NCBI RefSeq assembly: GCF_963667045.1
Contig: NZ_OY762934.1
Location: 4,284,501-4,348,500, forward strand
Reading direction: 5' to 3'
DNA: 64,000 nt
From: an uncultured Cohaesibacter sp.
GTDB taxonomy: Bacteria > Pseudomonadota > Alphaproteobacteria > Rhizobiales > Cohaesibacteraceae
Every line of letters starts with the position of its first letter. The first letter of the stretch is position 1. Shown piece by piece: positions 48,747-64,000 of the stretch. The position numbers and the translations under genes were made by a program. Below the pieces are notes generated by a model. That model did no database searches. It was not told the origin of the DNA and was given only the letters and a program-made list of their open reading frames with translations.

Positions 48747-50075
48747 ATGCTCTATCTCGAATTCGTGTTTCTGTTGGTCATGCTCTATATCGGGTCCCGC
48801 TTTGGCGGGATCGGTCTGGGTGTGGTGTCCGGCATTGGTCTGGTCATCGAAGTGTTCATCTTCCAGATGCCACCAACCTCTCCCCCCATCACCGTGATGC
48901 TGATCATTCTGGCGGTTGTCACCTGTGCCTCCATTCTGGAGGCTGCTGGCGGTTTGAAATACATGTTGCAGGTGGCCGAGCGCATGCTGCGTTCCAACCC
49001 GAAGCGCGTGACGCTGATCGCGCCGTTCGTGACCTACTTCATGACCTTCTTGCTGGGAACCGGTCACGCGGTCTATTCCATCATGCCGATCATCGGTGAT
49101 GTGGCGCTCAAGAATGGTATCCGTCCGGAACGTCCGATGGCTGCCGCCTCCGTGGCGTCGCAGGTCGGCATCACGGCTTCGCCGATCTCTGCAGCCGTTG
49201 TCTATTATCTGGCGCAGCTGTCCGATCTCAACCCGAACATCACGCTGTTGTCCATCCTGATGGTCACCGTTCCGGCCACCCTGTGTGGCACGCTCGCCAT
49301 GGCGCTCTACAGCATGCGTCGCGGCAAGGAACTGACGGATGATCCTGAGTATCAGAAACGCCTTGAAGACCCTGCATGGTCCGAAAAGATCCGCTCGACC
49401 ACGGCGACGTCACTGAACGAAAAACTGCCGGTCAAGGCCCGCAATGCGGTGCTGCTGTTCATTGCTGCCATTTTCATCATCGTTGTCATTGCCATGGTGC
49501 CCGAAATCAGAACCGTTGCCGGAGCAGAAAAACCGATCAGCATGGCGGTCGTCATCCAGATGATGATGCTGTGCTTTGGCGGTATCATCCTGCTGGCAAC
49601 CAGAACCCAGCCGCGTGATGTGCCGGACGGGGTGGTTTTCAAGTCGGGCATGGTGGCCGCGATTGCCATTTTCGGTATCGCTTGGATGTCGGACACCTAT
49701 TTCCAGTATGCCATGCCGCAGTTCAAGACCGGTATCGTGGAAATGGTCACCAACTATCCATGGACCTTCGCTCTGGCGCTGTTCATCGTGTCGGTCGTGG
49801 TCAATTCGCAGGCCGTGGTGGCGCGCATGATGCTGCCGGTCGGTCTCGGGCTAGGTCTGGAACCGGCGCTGCTGATCGGTCTGATGCCTGCTCTCTATGG
49901 CTATTTCTTTATCCCGAACTACCCGTCCGATATTGCCACGGTGAACTTCGACGTATCGGGGACCACCAAGATCGGCAAATGGTATTTCAACCATTCCTTC
50001 ATGACGGTCGGCCTTATTGCCGTCGTCACCGGATCCGTGGTCGGTTATCTGCTGGCCAAGATCATCATCGGCTAG
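48747..50075 (+). CDS. Anaerobic C4-dicarboxylate transporter (Dcu family)
   Basis: The 442-residue membrane protein belongs to the DcuA/DcuB family that takes up or exchanges fumarate, malate, aspartate and succinate, mainly without oxygen. GTGHAVYSIMPIIGDVA and ASQVGITASPISAAVVYYLAQ are family motifs, and GYFFIPNYPSDIATVNFD near the end is characteristic. About ten to twelve membrane segments are visible. An AAAGGAG site precedes the ATG. No fumarate reductase or two-component partner lies next to it. Confidence 0.94.
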   Translation: MLYLEFVFLLVMLYIGSRFGGIGLGVVSGIGLVIEVFIFQMPPTSPPITVMLIILAVVTCASILEAAGGLKYMLQVAERMLRSNPKRVTLIAPFVTYFMTFLLGTGHAVYSIMPIIGDVALKNGIRPERPMAAASVASQVGITASPISAAVVYYLAQLSDLNPNITLLSILMVTVPATLCGTLAMALYSMRRGKELTDDPEYQKRLEDPAWSEKIRSTTATSLNEKLPVKARNAVLLFIAAIFIIVVIAMVPEIRTVAGAEKPISMAVVIQMMMLCFGGIILLATRTQPRDVPDGVVFKSGMVAAIAIFGIAWMSDTYFQYAMPQFKTGIVEMVTNYPWTFALALFIVSVVVNSQAVVARMMLPVGLGLGLEPALLIGLMPALYGYFFIPNYPSDIATVNFDVSGTTKIGKWYFNHSFMTVGLIAVVTGSVVGYLLAKIIIG

Positions 50076-50110
50076 GATGACCTTGCTGTCGATCTCCTGA
50101 AAGACCATAG

Positions 50111-50141
50111 GGCCTCCCGCAGTGTTGCGGGGGGCTTTTTG
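50111..50141 (+). terminator. Rho-independent terminator of the Dcu gene
   Basis: GCCTCCCGC pairs with GCGGGGGGC (one wobble pair) and is followed by TTTTT. Confidence 0.85.
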
Positions 50142-50261
50142 TGCTGGTGGATTCTGCGAGCAGAGATCCCGGCTGCCTGCAATTTGGGCTTTGAATGTGG
50201 GTGGCCATTTGCTAGGGACAGGCAGGCCCGTTTCGGGCCGGAGCCCCCCGGAGTCTCTGAC

Positions 50262-50972
50262 ATGGTCCTGTTGCTGTTCGTTGTTGTCGGATTTTTGAGC
50301 GCGCTGGCCTCGGCAGTGTTTGGCTTCGGTACTGCGTTGTTTTTCCTCGCCATCGGATCGCACCTGCTGGACGTCAAGGACACCATTGTGCTGGCGACGG
50401 TTCTGTTCGCCGCTTCGACCATCACGAAATCCATTCTTTACGGGCGGCATGTCGACTGGCGCATCGTCGGGGTGATGGCTGTTTCCTGCCTGCCGTTTGC
50501 CTATGGCGGATCGTTGCTGCTGGCGCATGTGCCCGGTGATCTGGTCAAACGGCTGCTCGGGAGCATGGTGCTCTGCTATGTGATCCTCAAGCATATCGGT
50601 CGCCTGCCTGCCGTCCGTATCGGCTGGCGCGGTCTTGTGGTGGGATCGGCACTCTACGGTTTTGTTTCAGGGCTGGTGGGTAGCGGCAACCTGATCAAGG
50701 TGATCATGTTTCGCGAGATGCAGATCTCGCGGCAGGCCTTTGTCGGGGCGATGGCTGCCACATCGGTGATGTCGAATCTTGCCAAGCTGTCGGGCTACTG
50801 GCAAAGCGGATTGCTGACCGCAGACATGTCCGAGCCCGCCGCGGCTCTGGTTGTTTCGGCCATTGCCGCGGCGCTGCTTGGCAGGTTCGTGCTCAACCGG
50901 ATCTCTGCCGACAGCTTCGAGACAGGGCTGCAGATCCTGATGGTGATCGCCGCCCTGGCTCTGCTCTTCTAG
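50262..50972 (+). CDS. Sulfite exporter TauE/SafE (TSUP) family permease
   Basis: The 236-residue membrane protein has the TSUP architecture: two four-helix halves, the first with GFLSALASAVFGFGTALFFLA, the second with GLVVGSALYGFVSGLVGSGN. TSUP proteins move sulfite, sulfoacetate or other organosulfur anions, or act with sulfide oxidation. I chose the ATG at 50262; the frame is open further back. It converges on uvrB, which ends four bases after it. The substrate cannot be told from sequence. Confidence 0.9.
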   Translation: MVLLLFVVVGFLSALASAVFGFGTALFFLAIGSHLLDVKDTIVLATVLFAASTITKSILYGRHVDWRIVGVMAVSCLPFAYGGSLLLAHVPGDLVKRLLGSMVLCYVILKHIGRLPAVRIGWRGLVVGSALYGFVSGLVGSGNLIKVIMFREMQISRQAFVGAMAATSVMSNLAKLSGYWQSGLLTADMSEPAAALVVSAIAAALLGRFVLNRISADSFETGLQILMVIAALALLF

Positions 50973-50975
50973 CCT

Positions 50976-53651
<2,676 letters not shown>

Positions 53652-53792
53652 GTGCCTGCCTCGCGATGCTGTTTGAGCCCAATGTAAGGGAACAAAGCAA
53701 GAATATGAAGGGGGGGAGGAAAATAATTCAACGGACGGGTCATGGGGGATTGTATCAGCCAAATGGCCAATTTTCTGTTTTATTAAATAGTC

Positions 53793-53816
53793 CTAATATT
53801 CGAAAATACTAAATTA
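53793..53816. promoter_or_regulatory. Candidate sulfur-responsive operator upstream of sqr (TTCGAA-centred)
   Basis: CTAATATTCGAAAATACTAA (53793-53812) lies 70 to 89 bases before the sqr start. Similar sequences occur in front of the DUF2892 gene at 59889 and on the - strand before the octaheme cytochrome at 62677. The core TTCGAA is palindromic with AT-rich arms carrying CTAA. This suits an ArsR-type (BigR/SqrR-like) or similar dimer; no such regulator gene is in the window. Confidence 0.5.
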
Positions 53817-53881
53817 AAGGACGTCGCACTATGCACAGGGCACCTTTCGCCGGGGAGGGGCGGTGCTTCAAAGGAGAGAAA

Positions 53882-55153
53882 ATGACGCACGTAGTTGTTA
53901 TGGGGGGAGGTCTTGGCGGTCTTTCGGCAGCTTATGAAATCCGCCAGAAATTGTCCAAGACGGACAAGGTAACCGTGGTTTCCAACAAACCATTCTTCCA
54001 GTTCACCCCGTCCAACCCGTGGGTTGCCGTGGGGTGGCGCAAGAAAAAGGACATCACGCTGGATCTGGCGACGGTTCTGCCGAAGAACAAGGTGGATTTC
54101 ATCTGCTCTGCAGTCACCAGCGTTGATCCGGAGCATAATGCGATCGGTCTGGCCGACGGCTCCATCGTTGCCTATGATTATCTGGTGATCGCGACCGGGC
54201 CGGAACTGGCCTTTGACGAGATCGAGGGACTGGGGCCGGAAGGCAACACCATCTCGGTGTGCGACGTGGATCATGCCACCGCTGGCTATGAAAAGTGGGA
54301 AGCCTTCTGCAAGGATCCGGGACCGATCGTGGTTGGCGCGGTTCAGGGCGCCTCCTGCTATGGTCCGGCCTATGAAACGGCGATGATCTTCGATACGGAC
54401 CTGCGCAAGCGCAAGATCCGTGACAAGGTGCCGATGACCTTCGTGACCTCCGAACCCTATGTCGGGCATCTCGGCCTTGGCGGGGTGGGCGACACCAAGG
54501 GCATGCTGGAATCGGCCATGCGCGACCGTACGGTGAAATGGATCACCAACGCCAAGGTCGACAAGATTGAAGCCGGTGTCATGCATGTCACTGAAGTCAA
54601 CGAGGACGGATCGGAAAAGCAGAAGCACGAGTTGCCGTTCAAGCATTCGATGATGTTGCCGGCCTTCCGTGGCATTCCTGCGCTTCAGGGCATCGAAGGG
54701 TTGGTCAACCCACGTGGCTTCGTCATCGTTGACAAGCACCAGCGCAATCCGAAATATCCCAACATCTTCGGTATTGGCGTCTGCATCGCCATTCCGCCTT
54801 ATGAAAAGACGCCGGTGCCGGTGGGGGTTCCCAAGACTGGCTACATGATCGAGTCGATGGTGACCGCATCTGCCAAGAATCTGAAGGAAATTCTCGCTGG
54901 TGAGGAGCCGACCCACGAAGCAACGTGGAACGCCATCTGTCTTGCCGATTTTGGTGACTCCGGGCTGGCCTTTGTTGCTATGCCGCAGATCCCGCCACGC
55001 AACACCAACTATTCTGGGCAGGGCAAGTGGGTTCACCTGGCCAAGATTGCCTTCGAAAAATACTTCCTGCGCAAGATCCGCATCGGTGAAACCGAGCCAT
55101 ATTATGAGAAGGCTGTTCTGAGCCTTCTGGATATTGCCAAGATCAAGAAGTGA
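53882..55153 (+). CDS. sqr: Sulfide:quinone oxidoreductase-type flavoprotein
   Basis: The 423-residue protein is an FAD enzyme of the disulfide-reductase superfamily that passes electrons from sulfide to quinone at the membrane. FAD motif VVVMGGGLGGLSAAYEI is at residues 4-20; YDYLVIATGPEL is at 98-109; cysteines C127, C159 (in GAVQGASCYGPA) and C353 (ICLADFGDSG) stand close to the three redox cysteines of Acidithiobacillus SQR (128, 160, 356). The ATG at 53882 has AAAGGAG. The last 30 residues contain an amphipathic helix suited to membrane docking. It is monocistronic with a terminator after it. Confidence 0.9.
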   Translation: MTHVVVMGGGLGGLSAAYEIRQKLSKTDKVTVVSNKPFFQFTPSNPWVAVGWRKKKDITLDLATVLPKNKVDFICSAVTSVDPEHNAIGLADGSIVAYDYLVIATGPELAFDEIEGLGPEGNTISVCDVDHATAGYEKWEAFCKDPGPIVVGAVQGASCYGPAYETAMIFDTDLRKRKIRDKVPMTFVTSEPYVGHLGLGGVGDTKGMLESAMRDRTVKWITNAKVDKIEAGVMHVTEVNEDGSEKQKHELPFKHSMMLPAFRGIPALQGIEGLVNPRGFVIVDKHQRNPKYPNIFGIGVCIAIPPYEKTPVPVGVPKTGYMIESMVTASAKNLKEILAGEEPTHEATWNAICLADFGDSGLAFVAMPQIPPRNTNYSGQGKWVHLAKIAFEKYFLRKIRIGETEPYYEKAVLSLLDIAKIKK

Positions 55154-55187
55154 CCGGGCAACGATAATCGATTTGGAAGCTCATCCT

Positions 55188-55217
55188 GCCGCTGTTCTTC
55201 GGAGCAGCGGCTTTTTT
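55188..55217 (+). terminator. Rho-independent terminator of sqr
   Basis: GCCGCTG pairs with CAGCGGC across a ten-base loop and is followed by TTTTTT. Confidence 0.82.
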
Positions 55218-55310
55218 GTGTTCGCTTGTCTGGCGCTGGGCCTTTGGCTTTGGGGCAAGCGAGCCCTTGGCTTTGGGTAAGTGCAGGGGGGCTCAGTGTC
55301 GAGAGGCCAT

Positions 55311-56231
55311 TCAGGCAGGGATGTCGGCGGATGCTTCGGCTGGCTTCTTGGACTTGCGCAGGCGCTTCTGGATCTGCGGCAGCAGTTCCACCAGCAGGAT
55401 GCAGGAGAAGATCAGGAAGCAGCCGAAATACTGACTGGGGTTCAGACGCTCGCCCAGCAGGATGGCTCCGAAGATGGCTGCAAACAGGCTTTCGCCGGAG
55501 AGGATGATTGCCGCGTCTGCCGGTGGCGTGTAGCGCTGGCCGATGGCCTGCAGACCAAAGGCCAGAGCGCCGGAGAAGACGCCGGTATAGATGATCTCGA
55601 ACCATGCGCCCTGAAGGCTCGCCACGTCGAGGCTTTCAAATGGCAGGCCGAACAGCAGACCCAGTAGGCCGGCGGTTGCGAACTGGAGCAGGGCAAAGGC
55701 CAGCGGGTTGCCGTATTGGCTGACCATGCGGCCGACCAGAATGATCTGGAAGGTCCAGCACAGCGCGCTGACCATCATCAGAATGTCGCCCTGTTTCATG
55801 GCTTCGAGGCTGCCAGCCAGAAGATAGGCGCCGATAATGGACAGAACCACAAGCGGCCAGATCATGGGAGAAGGCCAACTGCGGAAAACAAGCACGCCGA
55901 TAACCGGGGTCAGCGGCACATACATGGCTGTCAGGAACCCTGCGTTGGTAACGGACGTCGTGGCAAACCCCATCTGCTGGAAGGCGATGCCGGCAAAGAA
56001 GATGGCACCGACCAGAATGCCCTTGATGATGACGGGCGCGGGAATGGGATTGCTCACCCGCCGCCGTTCGAAATAGGCGAAGGGCGCGACGGCCAATGTT
56101 GCCAGAACGAAGCGCACGCCGGTGAAGTTCATCGGGCCGATGGAGGCCATGGCCGTGGACTGGGCCACGAAGGCGGCCCCCCAGACGACGGCGGCAATCA
56201 GCAACAACAGGTTGGCGGTCATTCTTGGCAT
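55311..56231 (-). CDS. EamA/DMT-family transporter
   Basis: The membrane protein (306 residues from the preferred start) has ten predicted helices in two EamA repeats. The first begins LLLLIAAVVWGAAFVAQSTAM and the second contains GVFSGALAFGLQAIGQRYTPPADAAIILSGESLFAA, cited by its ends; the final ERLNPSQYFGCFLIFSCILLVE is typical. DMT exporters move amino acids, nucleotide-like or other small molecules out of the cell. I prefer the ATG at 56231; a GTG at 56270 would add 13 residues. The substrate is unknown. Confidence 0.92.
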   Translation of the reverse strand: MPRMTANLLLLIAAVVWGAAFVAQSTAMASIGPMNFTGVRFVLATLAVAPFAYFERRRVSNPIPAPVIIKGILVGAIFFAGIAFQQMGFATTSVTNAGFLTAMYVPLTPVIGVLVFRSWPSPMIWPLVVLSIIGAYLLAGSLEAMKQGDILMMVSALCWTFQIILVGRMVSQYGNPLAFALLQFATAGLLGLLFGLPFESLDVASLQGAWFEIIYTGVFSGALAFGLQAIGQRYTPPADAAIILSGESLFAAIFGAILLGERLNPSQYFGCFLIFSCILLVELLPQIQKRLRKSKKPAEASADIPA

Positions 56232-56360
56232 CGGAGCAGCTTTCAGAACGGTAAGGGAGATCTCCGGCACGTTGTCTGTCCGGATCTTCGACTTCTAAGG
56301 CAAACAGCCCCATTACTGCAACCGAATTCTATTCATCAATCCAACAAGGAATTTGATGAG

Positions 56361-57035
56361 TCAGGGGCGTTGTGACGCAGCCTCAGTGAAGGTGGCCAAT
56401 TGGGTCGGGAAAGCGGTGGGCGTGGCATCTGCCAGAAGGCGGGCGGTCGCCTCGGTGGGGCTTGCAAAGGCGAGATAGCGCAAGGGTCCGCCGACCATGC
56501 CATCAAACGGCCAACAGGAGGAGAGCACCAGCAACGGGTTCTGGCTGTCCTTCTGCAAGCCCGACTGATCCCAGCGGACGATCTTGCTGCCGTCGATGTG
56601 ATAGGTGAGCGTAGGGCCGGTCATCTGTTCGACCTCCACCAGAGCACCGGTCTGAAGATGCTCGAGTGGCTGGAAGTGGGTGTCCCGATGAGCGGCGATG
56701 ATGCTTGTGCCTGCCGTGCCCAGTCGTGCTCCCTGTGCGAGCAGAACGGGACCGAAAGCGAGCCCTTCGCCTCCGGCTTCCTTGAGGATGATAGTGTGCA
56801 GATCAAGGGACGGGATGGTCAGGCGGGCGACCGGCCAGCTGTCGGCCCATGGCCACGCCTTGTGCGGCTTGCCATCGGCCCTGCTCTGTTGCCATGCGTG
56901 TTCCAGAAGGACCTGCGCCAGCTGCGCCTTGATGGGGATCCAACTGCCCCAGATCAGCAACCCCAGCCCCAGCAGTCCAAGAGCCATGGCACAAAGGGTG
57001 CCTAATTTATACTGCATGGGGCGGGGGTATCTCAT
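56361..57035 (-). CDS. Class GN sortase (marine proteobacterial type)
   Basis: The 224-residue transpeptidase has an N-terminal membrane helix (about 10-35) and a sortase beta-barrel with the catalytic triad: H116 in AAHRDTHF, C174 in LSSCWPF and R186 in GPLRYLAF. This group is found in Gram-negative bacteria, usually with one dedicated substrate gene next to it, here the VIT/vWA protein upstream in the operon. The sortase should attach that substrate to an unknown acceptor after cutting its C-terminal signal. A start at the second methionine (residue 7) is also possible. Confidence 0.92.
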   Translation of the reverse strand: MRYPRPMQYKLGTLCAMALGLLGLGLLIWGSWIPIKAQLAQVLLEHAWQQSRADGKPHKAWPWADSWPVARLTIPSLDLHTIILKEAGGEGLAFGPVLLAQGARLGTAGTSIIAAHRDTHFQPLEHLQTGALVEVEQMTGPTLTYHIDGSKIVRWDQSGLQKDSQNPLLVLSSCWPFDGMVGGPLRYLAFASPTEATARLLADATPTAFPTQLATFTEAASQRP

Positions 57036-57105
57036 GGTTTTCCGATCACAGATGGTGGTTCAGATCGCGCACGGGGTGGCCTCGTGCGCGTTTGTCGTTT
57101 GTGCG

Positions 57106-59631
57106 TCAGCGCGGCTCCGGTTCGATCTTGCGCCATTGCAGCCAGGCGAGCAGGGCACCGGCCAGTGTCAGCAGGGCAATGCCCGCGAGGATCAACAGGC
57201 TGGCCGGGGTTGCCGTTTTCGGCAGCAGGATCTGATTGCCGCCGGTCGGTATCAGAGCCGCCACCTTGGTGTTGCCGGCGGGGGCGGGGCTTGTGGCCAT
57301 TGCTTCCATCGCCGGAGCGCTGAGGCTGAAGCCGCGTTTGAACGCCCGCATCGGAGCGGCAGACCCGGCCGGAGCGTTGGGGGCCATGGATGGCTGAACC
57401 TGAGGCTCTTCGCCAAAGACGGCATCCATGTTCCAGCCGTCCGGCAGGTTGAGCGGCACCTTGCGGCTGTCAAGGGTCTCGCCTTCGGGCCGGGCCGGGG
57501 TCACATCTACGGCGACCAGGCTGGTAAGGCGTGTCACCAGATGGTGGCGGAGGCCGAGGGTCTCGATGGCCTTGTCGATACCGGCGCTGTCGGTTGACAG
57601 CAGACGCTCATTCTCCAACTGGCGGATCTTGCCTCGCGCCCAGAGCTTGTCGACGGCGGCGGACGGTGCTGCCTTGGTGATGTCCACGGTCATCGACCAG
57701 GGTTGATTGTCAAAGCGACCGCTGAGGGTCAGCGCGTTGCCCAGATCCTTGCCCTTGAAGGCGACGATGACCGGCTCCCCCTTGTAAAGGTCGGGCAGTT
57801 CGCTCGGGGATGCCTCGATGTCCTTGCCGTTGGTAAAGGATATGCTGAGGTCGGTAGCAACCGGGGTCGTCAGCTGGGTGAACAACTCGGCCATCTTGCC
57901 TTTGACTTCCGTGATGTCTCCGATCTGGGTGAAGGTGCCGCGACCGACTTCGGCAGCGCGGGACATGAAGAAACTGTTGGGAGCAGAGCCGATACCGACG
58001 GTGAAGATGCGGGAGCGGCCCTTTTGCGCCTTGACGGTTTCGAACAATTCTCGCTCGTTGCCGATGGCGCCGTCGGTGAGGAAGATCACCTGCCGCAGGG
58101 TCGGGGCATTCGGGGTCGCATCTTTCAATGCTGCCTGCATGGCCGGGAGCATCTCGGTGCCGCCGTGGGCCTGAATTGCGGCAACCCAGTAGCGCGCCGT
58201 TGACAGGTTTTCCTTGTTGGCAGGCTGGGGCGATGGGAACAGCTGCGCCATTTCGTTGTTGAAGCGGATGATCTGGAATTTGTCCTCCGGCTTAAGCTGA
58301 CCGAGGGCTTCGATCAGGCTTTCTCTGGCCTGACGGATGGATGGGCCATCCATCGAACCGGACTGGTCAATAACGAAAACGACTTCGCGCGGTGGCGTCT
58401 GCAGATCTTTGGCCAGCTTGTAGGGGGGCGTGATATAGGCGAGCAGATACTGGTCGGAGTCGCCCTCCGAGAGGGTCTCCTCTTCCCGTTCCTCGCCGTT
58501 GGCTTCCTTCTTCTGGCCATCCCCGGTCTGGCGTCCGGCGGGATCGTCCTTGAGGGTCTGGCTGAAGAGGCCGAGGTTCGGGGTTTCAGTCGGCTTGCCA
58601 GTCCAGGTCAGCAGGAAGTCCTTGTCGGCAGGCACAACATCTCCCTTGAGGTTGAGGGATATTTCCTTGCTGCCCACCGGCTTGATGACCACGTCATGAT
58701 AGTGGCTGACGACCTTGTCGAGGGGGAAGCCGGCTTTCAGATCGACACTGAGGCTGACCGGATTGCTCTTGCCGTCCTTCTCCGGGTCGAGCACGGGGGC
58801 GGTGATGGTGTCGCGATCCGGCACCGGGTCGGTGCTGGACCAGCCGTTGCCACCATCGGACTGGTTGGCCTTGAGGTCGATGACCGGCCGCAGAGGTTTG
58901 GCGAGCGGATTGTAGCGTGGTGCGACGACCAGCGGCACGCGCAGGGAGAATTCCTCGTCCTTGCGCGGAATGGTCTGCTGATACTCGATCTGGATGGTGA
59001 CTGAGTCCTTCGGGCCGATATTGGCCACCGCATTGGTAAACAGGTTGGGGCGCTGTTGCTCCAGAAGGCTCGCCTTCTTGCCTTCCTGTTTGGCTGCTTC
59101 ATAGATCTGGCGCGCTTCTTCCCGCGGCTTGATCTTGCCTTCGATGATGCGGTCGCCGATCTTCATTTTCAACTGGTCGACGGCGGCGGTGTCCGGCAGC
59201 GGGAAGACATAGATCCCTTCCACCCAGGCGTCGCTCGGATTGAGAAATTTCTGCGTCACGATGGTGCGCGCGACCGGGCCGGTAACGTCGACCTTGATGT
59301 CGGTGGCGACCTTTGGGGCTTCAATATATTTGCCCGCTTCCTTGGCCTTGAACAAAAGGCCACCCGATTGCATGTCATCGGGGGTGACGAGGAGCGGGGA
59401 GGCAATGGGAGCCGCTTGCGGGCTGACAGCTGTGGCCGGACTGGAATGAGCCTGGGAGCCAAAGGTGACAGTCAGGGCTGCGGCGACAATCAGTGCATAG
59501 GCGCTGACCCAGATCTTGAAGGCTTTTGAAAAGGAATGCTCGAGATCGGCTTTTGGGTGCAGTGCAATGCTATGGCGCTTTCTATTCCGATCTTTGATCC
59601 GGTCATTAAAAAGAGTCTCTGGCAATTTCAT
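57106..59631 (-). CDS. Sortase target protein with VIT and von Willebrand A domains
   Basis: The 841-residue protein has an N-terminal arm of about 35 residues before a signal/membrane helix (about 38-62), a VIT domain (about 85-215), an acidic linker, a vWA domain (VVFVIDQSGSMDGPSIRQA; the D-x-S-x-S metal site) and a C-terminal sorting signal: LPKTA at residues 803-807, a hydrophobic helix and a short arginine-rich tail. The order matches the marine proteobacterial sortase substrate family. It is exported and probably bound to the envelope, binding ligands through its MIDAS site. The gene leads the two-gene operon with the sortase. Confidence 0.94.
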   Translation of the reverse strand: MKLPETLFNDRIKDRNRKRHSIALHPKADLEHSFSKAFKIWVSAYALIVAAALTVTFGSQAHSSPATAVSPQAAPIASPLLVTPDDMQSGGLLFKAKEAGKYIEAPKVATDIKVDVTGPVARTIVTQKFLNPSDAWVEGIYVFPLPDTAAVDQLKMKIGDRIIEGKIKPREEARQIYEAAKQEGKKASLLEQQRPNLFTNAVANIGPKDSVTIQIEYQQTIPRKDEEFSLRVPLVVAPRYNPLAKPLRPVIDLKANQSDGGNGWSSTDPVPDRDTITAPVLDPEKDGKSNPVSLSVDLKAGFPLDKVVSHYHDVVIKPVGSKEISLNLKGDVVPADKDFLLTWTGKPTETPNLGLFSQTLKDDPAGRQTGDGQKKEANGEEREEETLSEGDSDQYLLAYITPPYKLAKDLQTPPREVVFVIDQSGSMDGPSIRQARESLIEALGQLKPEDKFQIIRFNNEMAQLFPSPQPANKENLSTARYWVAAIQAHGGTEMLPAMQAALKDATPNAPTLRQVIFLTDGAIGNERELFETVKAQKGRSRIFTVGIGSAPNSFFMSRAAEVGRGTFTQIGDITEVKGKMAELFTQLTTPVATDLSISFTNGKDIEASPSELPDLYKGEPVIVAFKGKDLGNALTLSGRFDNQPWSMTVDITKAAPSAAVDKLWARGKIRQLENERLLSTDSAGIDKAIETLGLRHHLVTRLTSLVAVDVTPARPEGETLDSRKVPLNLPDGWNMDAVFGEEPQVQPSMAPNAPAGSAAPMRAFKRGFSLSAPAMEAMATSPAPAGNTKVAALIPTGGNQILLPKTATPASLLILAGIALLTLAGALLAWLQWRKIEPEPR

Positions 59632-59852
59632 TGTTCTGTGTTCCCGAAAAAGGGTTGGTCCGTGATCACTGTCTCATGGGATTAAGGCCCAGATTTGCGG
59701 TAAAATGGGCGCAAGCTGATCAATATTGTGACGATTTCGGGGCAGCTGATATAAATGTATGTGATGGGCAGAAAAGTGCCTCCTGTCCGCGACAGCTTGC
59801 CTCAGCAGGAATCCTGATCTTTGGCCTTTACCTCGCAAAGATCATTTGTTAT

Positions 59853-59876
59853 GTATATTCGCAAGTTCTAATTTAA
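59853..59876. promoter_or_regulatory. Candidate sulfur-responsive operator upstream of the DUF2892 gene
   Basis: GTATATTCGCAAGTTCTAAT (59853-59872) followed by TTAA lies directly before the ribosome site (GAGG) of the DUF2892 gene at 59889. It resembles the elements at 53793 and 62807. Confidence 0.45.
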
Positions 59877-59888
59877 CGAGGTGCTAAA

Positions 59889-60092
59889 ATGTCTCTGGAT
59901 CGCTCCATTATCGCATTCGCAGGCTTCATGGTCCTGCTTTCTGTCGTGCTTACGGTTTACGTCCATCCGCTGTTTATCTGGTTCACGGTTTTCATCGGTG
60001 CCAACATGCTGCAGTCCGCCTTTACCGGCTTCTGCCCGGCAGCGGTGATCCTGAAAAAGTTCGGCGTCAAACCGGGTACGGCTTTCGATTGA
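59889..60092 (+). CDS. DUF2892 small inner-membrane protein
   Basis: The 67-residue protein has two hydrophobic helices and ends in the family pattern [23 protein letters not shown] with the conserved cysteine. DUF2892 proteins are often near sulfide and rhodanese genes. The ATG at 59889 has GAGG upstream. It is divergent from the sortase operon and convergent with the first cytochrome module. It shares a candidate operator with sqr and the octaheme cytochrome, which supports a role in sulfur handling, though that is inference. Confidence 0.87.
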
Positions 60093-60144
60093 TCGCCACA
60101 TAAAGGCAAGGGCAGATGCTGTCCTTGCGGTCTGGTCGTGTCAC

Positions 60145-60183
60145 AAAAAAAGAAGCCGCAGCACATGCTGCGGCTTCTTTTTT
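60145..60183. terminator. Bidirectional rho-independent terminator
   Basis: A perfect GC-rich stem (AAGAAGCCGCAGCA / TGCTGCGGCTTCTT) is flanked by A and T runs. It ends both the DUF2892 gene and the convergent cytochrome b operon. Confidence 0.9.
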
Positions 60184-60200
60184 GGAACTGGCCATTCCGG

Positions 60201-60917
60201 CTATTCGTCTGCCTTCAGCATGTCCGGCTGCTGTTCTTCCAGATAGGCCTCTTCTGCAGGTGTCAGCTCGATCTTTTCATAGCCGGTGATCATCGTTCTG
60301 ATATAGTGGAACACCGTCTTGCCGGTGGTCGTCATGTAAACATGGATGACGACGAAGGTGATCATGGCAAAGGCGGCAGCCGTATGCACGAAGGCGACCA
60401 GCGAAAAGATCTGCTGGCTGTTCTGTATTGTTTCCCAAAGGCCATAGAGCAGATAGGCGATGCCCGAGAGCCAGAGCGCCGGGCCGATGATAACCATGAA
60501 GGTCAGGTAGGCCAGCGACTGCAGGGCATTCTGCTTGCGGGCGAGGCTTTTCGAATAGGGATGCGGTGCGCCCATGATGATGCCGTAGGCATAGAATTTG
60601 ATCACGGCGAACAACCCCTTGTTCTGCGGCAGATAGTGGCGCCACTGTCCGGTGGTGAAATTCCAGAAGGTGGTAAAGAGCCATAGCACCAGCAGCAGGA
60701 GGGCGGCATAGGTATGGACCATGACCGCCAGCGGGAAGGGCAGGACGGAAAACGTGCCATGCAGATTGAAGCCGGAGAAGGCCAGAATGAAGATCAGCAA
60801 CGCCTGTGACCAGTGCCAGAAGCGTTCGTAGCGGGTGTAGATCTTCACCGCCCGCTTCTTGACATCGGGCCGGATGGTCAACTCTTCAGATCTGGCGGAA
60901 GACGGTATGTCAGTCAT
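60201..60917 (-). CDS. Cytochrome b561-type membrane subunit, partner of octaheme cytochrome (module 1)
   Basis: The 238-residue protein resembles the gamma subunits of formate dehydrogenase and thiosulfate reductase: four membrane helices with haem-binding histidines in YERFWHWSQALLIF, MVHTYAALL and FVHTAAAFAMITFVVIHVYM. It should pass electrons between the quinone pool and the octaheme cytochrome encoded 11 bases upstream. The ATG at 60917 is taken because the longer frame back to 61034 lies inside the cytochrome gene. It is a close paralogue of the gene at 62976. Confidence 0.9.
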   Translation of the reverse strand: MTDIPSSARSEELTIRPDVKKRAVKIYTRYERFWHWSQALLIFILAFSGFNLHGTFSVLPFPLAVMVHTYAALLLLVLWLFTTFWNFTTGQWRHYLPQNKGLFAVIKFYAYGIIMGAPHPYSKSLARKQNALQSLAYLTFMVIIGPALWLSGIAYLLYGLWETIQNSQQIFSLVAFVHTAAAFAMITFVVIHVYMTTTGKTVFHYIRTMITGYEKIELTPAEEAYLEEQQPDMLKADE

Positions 60918-60928
60918 GATAGGTCTCC

Positions 60929-62677
60929 TCAAGCCTGCTTCTTGCGATTGCGGAAGATGATGCGCAGCAGGGCGTGGAAAAGGACGCCCAGCGCGGTAAG
61001 GACGAAGGCGGCGTAGCCGATCCAGTCGAGCCACTTGAAATGGTCGCGCCCCGGCATGTAGATGCCGGTGATGCCATCAAGACGGCCTTGTTTGGCGTGG
61101 CACTCGGTGCAGTGCACGGCCTGATCTTTCGGCGCGACCATGTGGGTGATCGGCCAATACATATGGGTGTCGACAAAGCCGAGTTTGCCGGAAAAATCCT
61201 TGCCGATGAACTCCATCGCAGCGGGCACCGACTTGCTCCAGTCTAAATTGGTCCAGAGGGCTGTGTCGTCATTGCCGAAGACATGGTTGTAGACCAGCTT
61301 GTTGGTTTCCATGTCATAGGGCTGGCGCGACAGCATCTGCTTGAAGGGCCAGATGCGTGATTTGCCATCACTTGGAGAGCCGCCAAGGGCGTTGATCTCG
61401 ACGACCTTGGTAGGATCGATCTTGTCGTCCAGCAGCGTCCATCTGGTCTCGCCGTTGAACCAGGCATAGAAGGGCTTGATATTCTCGCCATATTCGAAAT
61501 TGCCCTTTTCGGACATGTAGCTGGGGTGACCATGCTCATCCATGTCCTTGTAGGGTTTGCCGTCCTTCAGCTTGCCAGCGGTTGACCAGTCCCATAGGGT
61601 CTTGGTGGCAACGCCGCCGCGGGCAAACTCGGGGATGTGGCAGGTCTGGCAGGCGACCGTGTCTGTGTGGTCGTTGAGCTTGATGCCCATGAGGTCTCCG
61701 CCATCATGGGGGCGGTTCGAGTGGCAGCTTTCGCAGGTTGCCGATGGTTCCATCAGGCTGGCCATCTGATCTAACTTGCGGATCTTGGCAGTCTTTGTTT
61801 CCTCGCCATCCTTGGCGACGGTTGTCGGCTTGGCCTCCATGCTGTAGCGCGAGCCGGGCCATTGATGGCCAGAGCCTGCGTGACAGGCCGTACAGGCCAT
61901 GTTGAGACCGTCCTTGTTCATATGCACGTCGAGTGTCTTGTCCGGCAGGTTCAGGGAGCTGTCCAGATCGCCGTGCTTGACGCCATCGCCGCCACCACCG
62001 TAATAGTGGCAGGAGCCGCAGTTCTGGCGTTGCGGATTGGTGACCGACCGGGCTGCCTTGCCAAGGTCGGGTGGCATCACCGTCTTGCCGTTGACCGTGA
62101 TCGGCTCATAGAGTGGATGTCCGGCTTTGGTCGGATACTTGCTGTAGAGTGCGGTGTCCGCATGGCAGACAAGGCAATCCACCGCTTCCGGCTCGGATGG
62201 TGGATCCTTGCGCATGTCTTCCCAGCCATAACCGGCGTGACAGGAAGTGCAGCGCGGCTCATTGGACGCGACGTTGCCGCAGAAGGCGTTGATTACGGTC
62301 CGCTTGCCAAGGGTCTGGCCGGTCGCCTCGTTTTTGGTTTCCCATTTCCAGTGCAGGGTATGCTGCACCTGATCTGCCGCTTCGGTGTGGCAGGACAGGC
62401 AGGCTTTGGTAACCTCGGGACCAGATTTGAAATCCTGTTGCAGGATCTCGAACTTGGAGTGATCAGCCGTGCCGCCAGCCGGCTTGCCAGAAAGCTGCAA
62501 GCTGGCCTTTGCCGCCGGGCTGAGAGGTGAATGGGGCAGGGCGTCGCCCGATGCGGCTGACACTGCGCCAACCGGCAGTAACAGCAGTGACAAGAGAACA
62601 AGGGCAGACGCCGCCAGACCAGGTCTCTTGCTGGTCCTGTCGAGTGGCCATCTGCCTTGACATGCAAAGTTCGCCAT
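60929..62677 (-). CDS. otr: Octaheme c-type cytochrome, tetrathionate reductase family (Otr; module 1)
   Basis: The 582-residue protein has a signal peptide (about residues 17-41), exactly eight CxxCH haem-binding motifs (cysteines 93, 143, 168, 220, 262, 315, 343 and 523), and a C-terminal membrane helix (about 548-575) followed by a basic end. Motif spacing and the large gap before the last motif match Otr of Shewanella, which reduces tetrathionate, nitrite and hydroxylamine in vitro. The natural substrate here is unknown. The ATG at 62677 has GGAGG. It is followed by the cytochrome b gene, so the two form a membrane-bound redox complex. Confidence 0.93.
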   Translation of the reverse strand: MANFACQGRWPLDRTSKRPGLAASALVLLSLLLLPVGAVSAASGDALPHSPLSPAAKASLQLSGKPAGGTADHSKFEILQQDFKSGPEVTKACLSCHTEAADQVQHTLHWKWETKNEATGQTLGKRTVINAFCGNVASNEPRCTSCHAGYGWEDMRKDPPSEPEAVDCLVCHADTALYSKYPTKAGHPLYEPITVNGKTVMPPDLGKAARSVTNPQRQNCGSCHYYGGGGDGVKHGDLDSSLNLPDKTLDVHMNKDGLNMACTACHAGSGHQWPGSRYSMEAKPTTVAKDGEETKTAKIRKLDQMASLMEPSATCESCHSNRPHDGGDLMGIKLNDHTDTVACQTCHIPEFARGGVATKTLWDWSTAGKLKDGKPYKDMDEHGHPSYMSEKGNFEYGENIKPFYAWFNGETRWTLLDDKIDPTKVVEINALGGSPSDGKSRIWPFKQMLSRQPYDMETNKLVYNHVFGNDDTALWTNLDWSKSVPAAMEFIGKDFSGKLGFVDTHMYWPITHMVAPKDQAVHCTECHAKQGRLDGITGIYMPGRDHFKWLDWIGYAAFVLTALGVLFHALLRIIFRNRKKQA

Positions 62678-62806
62678 GTGGTCCTCCGAACAAATGCAAA
62701 AGGGCGAGAAGATCAATTTTTCCGGCAGAAACTGATCTGTTTGTCATGAAAAGCTGACCCGGCTCCGGACCGAGTCAGCAAGTCTATTAAACGAGACTAT
62801 AAAATG

Positions 62807-62830
62807 CTTATTTTAGATATTCGAATTTAG
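62807..62830. promoter_or_regulatory. Candidate sulfur-responsive operator upstream of otr module 1
   Basis: On the - strand CTAAATTCGAATATCTAA (62830-62813) lies about 130 bases before the otr start. It shares the TTCGAA core and CTAA arm with the elements at 53793 and 59853. Confidence 0.5.
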
Positions 62831-62920
62831 TTGATGAGGCGTGTTGTCACACGTCGTTCGTCGTAGGCTGCGTCCCACCATTCGAACCAGGCGAAGGATC
62901 TGGTCTTGGCATGGGGCAAA

Positions 62921-62952
62921 GAAAAAGGCCGCAACGGGGTTGCGGCCTTGGC
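62921..62952 (-). terminator. Rho-independent terminator of cytochrome module 2
   Basis: On the - strand AAGGCCGCAAC and GTTGCGGCCTT pair across a short loop and lead into TTTTTCTTTG, 24 bases after the stop of the second cytochrome b gene. Confidence 0.85.
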
Positions 62953-62975
62953 TGGTTTGCTCGGTGCTCTTGTTG

Positions 62976-63692
62976 TTATTTGATGCGGTCCGGCTCGTGG
63001 GTTTCCAGATAGGTAACCTCAGCTTCCGTCAGCTCCATGTCCTCAAAGCCGGTGATCATGGCCTTGGTATAATGGATCAGCGTCTTGCCTGTGGTGACCA
63101 TATAGATATGGCCGATCACGAAGGCGACCATCAGGAAAGCCCCGATGAGGTGCAGCAGCACGATCAGGCTGAAGATGTCGTTGTTGCCCGAGTTGCCTTC
63201 CCAGAAGCTGTAGAACATGTAGGCCAGCCCGGAAAGCCAGAGCAGGGGGCCAACCACAGTCATGATGGAGAAGTAGGCAAAGGACTGCAGCGGGTTCTGC
63301 TTGCGGCTGAGCGTGCGCTTGTAGGGATGAGGCTGACCACGCATCATGCCGACGAGATAATGCATGATGACCTCCCAGAGCCCTGCGTTTGTGGGCACGA
63401 AATGGCGCCATTGCCCGGTGGTGAAGGTCCAGAAGGCCGTGAACAGCCACAGGAAGATCAGCACGAAGGCGGCGATATCGTGGATCATTACCGCCGTGGC
63501 GAACGGGATGAAGCGGATCGTCCCGTGCACCGTGAAGCCGGAGAAGGCCAGAGTGAAGATAAGGATCGCCTGAGACCAGTGCCAGAAGCGTTCATAGCGA
63601 CTGTAGTTCTTGACCTTGCGATGCAAAATCCTGGTCTTGCTGCTTTCTGCCTTGCCAGTGGCAGGGCTTGAGGCAGATGTCATGTTGGTCAT
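62976..63692 (-). CDS. Cytochrome b561-type membrane subunit, partner of octaheme cytochrome (module 2)
   Basis: The 238-residue protein is a paralogue of the gene at 60201 with the same length and layout: RYERFWHWSQAILIFTLAFSG, MIHDIAAFVLIFLWLFTAFW, GQWRHFVPTNAGL and LLHLIGAFLMVAFVIGHIYMV carry the haem histidines in four membrane helices. I take the ATG at 63692, which has AGAGGA upstream; ATG 63683 is possible. It follows the second octaheme cytochrome by 13 bases. Confidence 0.9.
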   Translation of the reverse strand: MTNMTSASSPATGKAESSKTRILHRKVKNYSRYERFWHWSQAILIFTLAFSGFTVHGTIRFIPFATAVMIHDIAAFVLIFLWLFTAFWTFTTGQWRHFVPTNAGLWEVIMHYLVGMMRGQPHPYKRTLSRKQNPLQSFAYFSIMTVVGPLLWLSGLAYMFYSFWEGNSGNNDIFSLIVLLHLIGAFLMVAFVIGHIYMVTTGKTLIHYTKAMITGFEDMELTEAEVTYLETHEPDRIK

Positions 63693-63705
63693 GTGTCTGT
63701 CCTCT

Positions 63706-64000
63706 CTAGTGTTGACGCTGTTTGCGGGTGGCAAAGCGGAAGATCGTGTGGATTGCCACGCCCAGTATGGTCAGGATGATCAGGCCATAGCCCAGCCAGT
63801 TGATGAGGGGCATGTCATCCCGTCCGGGAATGTAGACCCCTTCGATGCCTTCGAGGCGACCACCCTTGGTGTGGCATTCATCGCACCGCACGGCCTTGTC
63901 CGACGGGGCCACCATGTGGGTGATGGGCCACCACATGCGGGTTTCGATGAACTCGAATTTGCCCGAATAGTCCTTGCCCATATATTCCTGTCCGGCCTTG
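63706..64000 (-). CDS. Octaheme c-type cytochrome, tetrathionate reductase family (module 2; cut by window)
   Basis: Only the last 97 residues are present. They hold the final haem motif CDECH, preceded by MWWPITHMVAP and followed by GVYIPGRDDMPLINWLGYGLII and a C-terminal membrane helix, all parallel to residues 490-582 of the cytochrome at 60929. The gene extends beyond the right edge. Operon with the cytochrome b at 62976. Confidence 0.9.
   Translation of the reverse strand, partial: KAGQEYMGKDYSGKFEFIETRMWWPITHMVAPSDKAVRCDECHTKGGRLEGIEGVYIPGRDDMPLINWLGYGLIILTILGVAIHTIFRFATRKQRQH

Follow-up and report, generated by a model that had tools for sequence, protein, structure and literature searches.

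Three similar AT-rich elements stand in front of sqr, a DUF2892 gene and the octaheme cytochrome gene otr in a 64,000-nucleotide stretch of an uncultured Cohaesibacter sp. genome (contig NZ_OY762934.1; the window hereafter, meaning the whole stretch), which raises the question of whether these genes form one regulon and which regulator reads the elements. The original prediction, made from the letters alone, proposed a shared TTCGAA-type element and one regulon, perhaps controlled by a BigR/SqrR-like persulfide sensor of the ArsR type with its gene outside the window. Our analysis indicates that the element is quite likely the operator of one autoregulated repressor, a two-cysteine ArsR protein encoded at G000:C1:5049044-5049385, which would be released from DNA by sulfane sulfur. 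A common regulon is supported for sqr and DUF2892 and is probable for otr, and it is larger than was proposed. All three elements were found exactly at the predicted positions (62830-62813 when read along the minus strand for otr):

53793..53812, plus strand: element before sqr, CTAATATTCGAAAATACTAA; 36.5 bits, rank 1 in the window
53882..55153, plus strand: sqr, sulfide:quinone reductase, 423 amino acids; the best hits among solved chains are to sulfide-quinone reductases (3sz0, E 7e-153)
59853..59872, plus strand: element before the DUF2892 gene, GTATATTCGCAAGTTCTAAT; 17.2 bits, rank 2
59889..60092, plus strand: 67-amino-acid membrane protein, DUF2892 = YgaP-like_TM (PF11127); 50.4 bits, cut-off 25.3
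62813..62830, minus strand: variant element before otr, CTAAATTCGAATATCTAA; 16.9 bits, rank 3
60929..62677, minus strand: otr, octaheme c-type cytochrome of the tetrathionate reductase family; TIGR04315, 609.7 bits, cut-off 375

The resemblance is unequal among the three, being strong at sqr, clear at DUF2892 and weak at otr. Because the patterns for the genome-wide and genus-wide searches were derived from the window's own sites, the main matrix was trained instead, independently of those patterns, on arsR promoters of the genus only, at loci identified by protein homology and all outside the window. This arsR-promoter matrix ranks the three elements first, second and third; the next independent place in the 64 kb scores 8.3 bits, and among the 751 segments of 300 nt that serve as background from the same genome, the highest score is 13.6 bits. 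A matrix trained more widely, on arsR, RND and transporter promoters, assigns 40.7 bits to sqr, 29.1 to DUF2892 and 19.0 to otr; in 200 random sequences of 64 kb from an order-3 Markov model, the best score is 17.8, short of the otr value. The three elements are also the sole matches of TTCG.A.{1,4}CTAA on both strands of the window. TTCGAA by itself occurs at 17 places in the window and was dropped as a motif; what stands of the proposed signal is the longer shared element. The deviant TTCGCA core at DUF2892, counted in the original prediction as a discrepancy, is a conserved variant present in 8 of the 9 closest genomes, the ninth having TTCGAA. The otr site is the weakest of the three because it has one base fewer between the core and CTAA, and the best pattern does not detect it.

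Searches covered the 5.24 Mb genome, in which the window is part of one contig of that length, and, for the genus comparison, 18 genomes. In the sister genome G015, sqr has the coordinates of sqr on contig 1 of Cohaesibacter celericrescens H1304, which makes the genus very probably Cohaesibacter. Genome-wide, TNATATTCGNANNTNCTAANTT has 2 sites without mismatch, 2 with one, 0 with two and 10 with three, compared to 8 in all for its reversed control; the four sites at 0-1 mismatch precede sqr, the DUF2892 gene, an RND adaptor-permease operon and the two-cysteine ArsR gene. A match at 2465571, with a GC-rich spacer and a hairpin-like context, is missing among the matches of a stricter pattern and was rejected. 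Genus-wide, ATATTCGNANNNNCTAA has 51 exact matches in 17 of the 18 genomes versus 2 for the reversed pattern (counts that are not independent, the genomes being related). Reading 32 of these matches as genes yielded 9 arsR, 14 RND adaptors, 4 DUF2892, 2 sqr, 2 half-size Sulf_transp and 1 place of a lost sqr; one further match, read from its locus, lies between the genes for maleylacetoacetate isomerase (maiA) and TsoY, and each of the remaining 18, assigned by coordinates, shortly precedes an orthologue of arsR, sqr or DUF2892. The RND identity was tested with models in the genome under study and is based elsewhere on the adaptor N-terminal sequence. The lost-sqr match lies in G017 between the neighbors of sqr, sqr itself being missing there (G017:C29; L257, minus strand, 3799, between EamA-type and uvrB neighbors), and may represent an operator left behind without its gene.

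Comparison of orthologous promoters across the genus, which the original prediction had suggested as a check, showed that the element is kept before arsR, sqr and DUF2892 orthologues. The position of the element is occupied by an ATTCGnA core in 11 of 13 promoters of sqr orthologues and in 11 of 17 of DUF2892 orthologues, and 0 of 1000 column-permuted matrices reach the mean of the sqr set, nor do any of 1000 reach that of the DUF2892 set. The permutation test covered 200 nt upstream and the arsR-matrix scoring 260 nt, which is why the two scores of locus L122 differ (-1.5 vs 8.8).

TsoY-family genes and some half-size sulfur-transporter genes appear to carry the element as well. All 6 further TsoY promoters (14.9-28.4 bits) and all 4 further half-size Sulf_transp promoters (19.9-32.4 bits), with genes found by family models, scored in this range when scanned over 400 nt, compared to 300 nt for the background; in G016, the transporter match is interrupted by a stop and covers the profile only from an internal position, which leaves the start of that gene uncertain. 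The long Sulf_transp paralogues score 0.4 bits or less at 23 of 23 loci. Among four more distant ArsR relatives, one promoter reaches 17.1 bits and three 2.1 or less. Of 80 sqr loci scanned for other genera, 79 are outside Cohaesibacter, and TATTCGAA, TTCGAATA and ATTCGAAT are absent from all 79, as well as from the one Cohaesibacter locus in this set (L173).

The candidate regulator is encoded 0.7 Mb from the window, with a rhodanese gene behind it. By pattern, 17 of the 18 genus genomes have ATATTCGAATATACTAA or a near variant in the regulator's promoter; the 18th, G017, has a degenerate form of 32.5 bits, and the site is thus kept in 18 of 18. In the genome scan, this site is the strongest (47.4 bits); it is one of the matrix's own training sites. 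By sequence, the protein is an ArsR winged-helix protein (HTH_5, 52.3 bits, cut-off 22; NF033788, 84.6, cut-off 55), and its closest solved relatives are HlyU, YgaV (3cuo, E 1e-17), the 6o8l chain, which we take to be SqrR, NolR and BigR (3pqj, E 2e-14). The cysteines of its ILCQL segment (following RLxIL) and of DLYC at the chain end align with the corresponding cysteines of YgaV and the 6o8l chain. The putative targets include those of a persulfide sensor, the element standing before both sqr and the arsR-rhodanese pair. The element was assigned to this ArsR because the site stands at its own gene; the same site before that gene, kept in related bacteria, is probably used by a reactive-sulfur sensor. 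The proposal of a BigR/SqrR-type ArsR outside the window thus holds in that the element precedes such a gene in every genome, but not as to its subtype: the protein (73.5 bits) falls below the cut-off of 155 for the BigR equivalog NF040642, as do two other ArsR proteins, L007 (92.0) and L009 (75.0), and it is not the nearest relative of SqrR.

The binding, repression, signal, chemistry and direction of control that we infer would be as follows. Without reactive sulfur, an ArsR dimer would occupy ATATTCGAATAT-like dyads and block transcription. Sulfane sulfur would then bridge the two cysteines and release the protein from DNA, by analogy with the tetrasulfide bridge of SqrR and YgaV. Release would induce sqr for sulfide oxidation, the rhodanese and the YgaP-like membrane protein for sulfur transfer, and the RND efflux operon; half-size sulfur transporters and TsoY would be added in some species, and the octaheme cytochrome operons probably respond too.

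Besides the relatedness of the genus genomes, several observations weigh against this reading or against the membership of otr. Under the alternative that survives best, which we regard as somewhat doubtful, the regulon is real but does not extend to otr, which has another control and whose AT-rich palindrome is unrelated or arose by chance. The main caution on the otr score is the palindrome AATATTCGAATATT at G000:C1:4748968-4748981 (L331), which, at 19.0 bits, outscores otr (16.9) and lies between two converging genes; it sits past the ends of both and was not counted as a regulon member. These genes encode a PP-loop ATPase and, judged by eye, a monothiol glutaredoxin-like protein. Furthermore, 4 of the 16 otr promoters score 7.3 bits or less, the sequence on either side of the otr site is likewise conserved, and the close congener G011 has ATTCGGACAT in place of ATTCGAAT. 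Outside the genus, scores of at least 14.0 bits (best, 20.1) occur at 4 of 79 sqr promoters, so that lone weak sites prove little; for the six diverged half-size Sulf_transp loci (L280, L289-L292, L315), scores over whole loci are 7.0-13.6, and these are not claimed as members. Against a chance origin, 8 of the 9 close congeners retain ATTCGAAT at the otr site; the otr core fits ATATTCGAATWTR, which occurs without mismatch in the genome only at otr and arsR; and the mean best score of the 16 promoters (11.9 vs 2.7 for permuted matrices) is reached by only 2 of 1000 permuted matrices. A related site also precedes the second octaheme cytochrome operon, otr2. Although the ATTCGnA pattern is found in 0 of 8 otr2 promoters, the matrix detects TTGCAATATACTAAAAT-like sites there (24.6 bits in G014 and 24.7 in G016; a weak 10.1 in the genome under study), and of 1000 permuted matrices, one reaches the mean over 7 of the 8 loci. 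The eighth, L142 (4.7 bits), belongs to a gene that is split in G011 and was excluded from this test. Judging from these sites, the otr and otr2 operons probably belong to the regulon. The remaining features of this region are:

60201..60917, minus strand: cytochrome b561-type gene behind otr; PF01292, 89.8 bits
L002 207-1913 and window 62976-63734, minus strand: second otr operon (otr2)

The second octaheme cytochrome (TIGR04315, 610 bits) and its cytochrome b form an operon in tandem with and upstream of otr, with the promoter beyond the window. At 62920-62949 (minus strand), after the second cytochrome b gene, GGCCGCAACCCCGTTGCGGCC is followed by a T-run (by eye), probably the terminator of that operon. 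The otr leader contains, at 62753-62779 (minus strand), a hairpin GCTGACTCGG-TCCGGA-GCCGGGTCAGC, in which CGGTCCGGAGCCG shows no variation among all 9 close congeners and both partners have changed in 2 of the 9 predicted pairs; the covariation term is just -0.07, and Rfam gave no match to the hairpin, nor any within 50000-64000 of the window. It is possibly an attenuator or a protein-binding hairpin.

A different regulator could bind the element, with arsR merely one of its targets, a possibility we consider unlikely. The genome encodes two more two-cysteine ArsR proteins, L007 and L009, and it is L007 that is nearest to SqrR (129.6 bits vs 66.0 for the element-marked ArsR; E 4e-37 vs 3e-17 against the 6o8l chain):

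L253 4265-4603, minus strand: nearest SqrR relative, two-cysteine ArsR gene without the element
L254 5193-5561, minus strand: other two-cysteine ArsR gene without the element

Related repressors can share sites, as the available text of PMC10451225 indicates for SoxR and sHdrR. That the nearest SqrR relative is unmarked also speaks against the proposed assignment, as does the absence from all three elements of the SqrR site ATTC-N8-GAAT, which has just two matches in the window (11209 and 43016) and was discarded as their motif. The same lack of a mark, with no 300-nt segment around L007 or L009 above 13.6 bits, argues against either of them as the regulator, whereas the marked ArsR has the genome's top-scoring site, a training site of the matrix though it is, and is kept in G004 (64% complete) and G008, two genomes that yielded neither sqr nor otr.

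That the element is part of a promoter for an alternative sigma factor, rather than an operator, is highly improbable. Its 3' CTAAAtT part does resemble a -10 box and it lies mostly on the strand of the gene, but it forms a near-perfect dyad at arsR, is on the opposite strand before TsoY in several genomes, and has an ATTCG core at varying distances from the gene starts (121 bases for arsR, 84 for sqr, 32 for DUF2892 and 149 for otr), where it could cover the promoter or the start region; at DUF2892, it comes after a conserved TTTAC-N17-TATG-like pair (by eye). Finally, that all three resemblances arose by chance, as comparison by eye of AT-rich promoters might suggest, is next to impossible given the top three ranks with an outside matrix, the genus-wide excess and the permutation results, and is already contradicted for sqr and DUF2892.

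By fold, cysteines and targets, the proposed regulon is of the broad SqrR/YgaV/BigR kind, with persulfide chemistry presumed by analogy. A close parallel in targets is SqrR of Rhodobacter capsulatus, likewise a two-cysteine ArsR repressor of sqr and a rhodanese gene, which leaves DNA once an intramolecular tetrasulfide forms, according to the available text of PMC9995734. The SqrR site, reported as ATTC-N8-GAAT in the accessible part of PMC9774250, differs from the spacerless ATTCGAAT dyad found here, and RND, TsoY and otr are not named among SqrR targets in the portions of these sources at hand; the nearest SqrR relative in this genome, moreover, is L007. YgaV of Escherichia coli is a close solved relative of the marked ArsR, and the DUF2892 protein matches the membrane domain of YgaP. 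YgaP joins rhodanese and membrane domains; here, the two are separate genes with the element near each. Like the proposed repressor, YgaV represses its own operon, ygaVP, and also shows the tetrasulfide bridge (PMC9774250, same part). BigR of Xylella/Agrobacterium shares the fold and both cysteine positions, but the NCBI BigR model separates it from our candidate. SoxR and sHdrR of Hyphomicrobium denitrificans are similar in being sulfane-sulfur-responsive ArsR repressors with several target promoters; they differ in that their targets are sulfur-oxidation clusters, and the available text of PMC10451225 and PMC12423496 contains no consensus site.

What appears to be new is an operator dyad of its own, ATTCGAAT, and an enlarged regulon that probably includes the octaheme cytochrome operons. 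Literature searches on Cohaesibacter, sulfide and the regulator found no account of this regulon among the matches listed (title and abstract start), and neither did broader paper searches among theirs, which does not prove absence. Tentatively, the dyad may define an operator class of its own, read by an ArsR distinct from the SqrR relative, that couples SQR to two tandem octaheme-cytochrome/cytochrome-b operons, RND efflux and TsoY, such that reactive sulfur made by SQR would also induce multihaem enzymes with a possible role in the reduction of polysulfide or sulfur oxyanions. How a marine genus responds to sulfide can thus be approached through a concrete candidate operator and one named candidate for its regulator, with the caution that the protein closest to SqrR need not be the one in control. 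Genes of uncertain role, namely, those for the DUF2892 protein, TsoY, the RND pump and the OTR-family cytochromes, are thereby placed under a probable reactive-sulfur signal.

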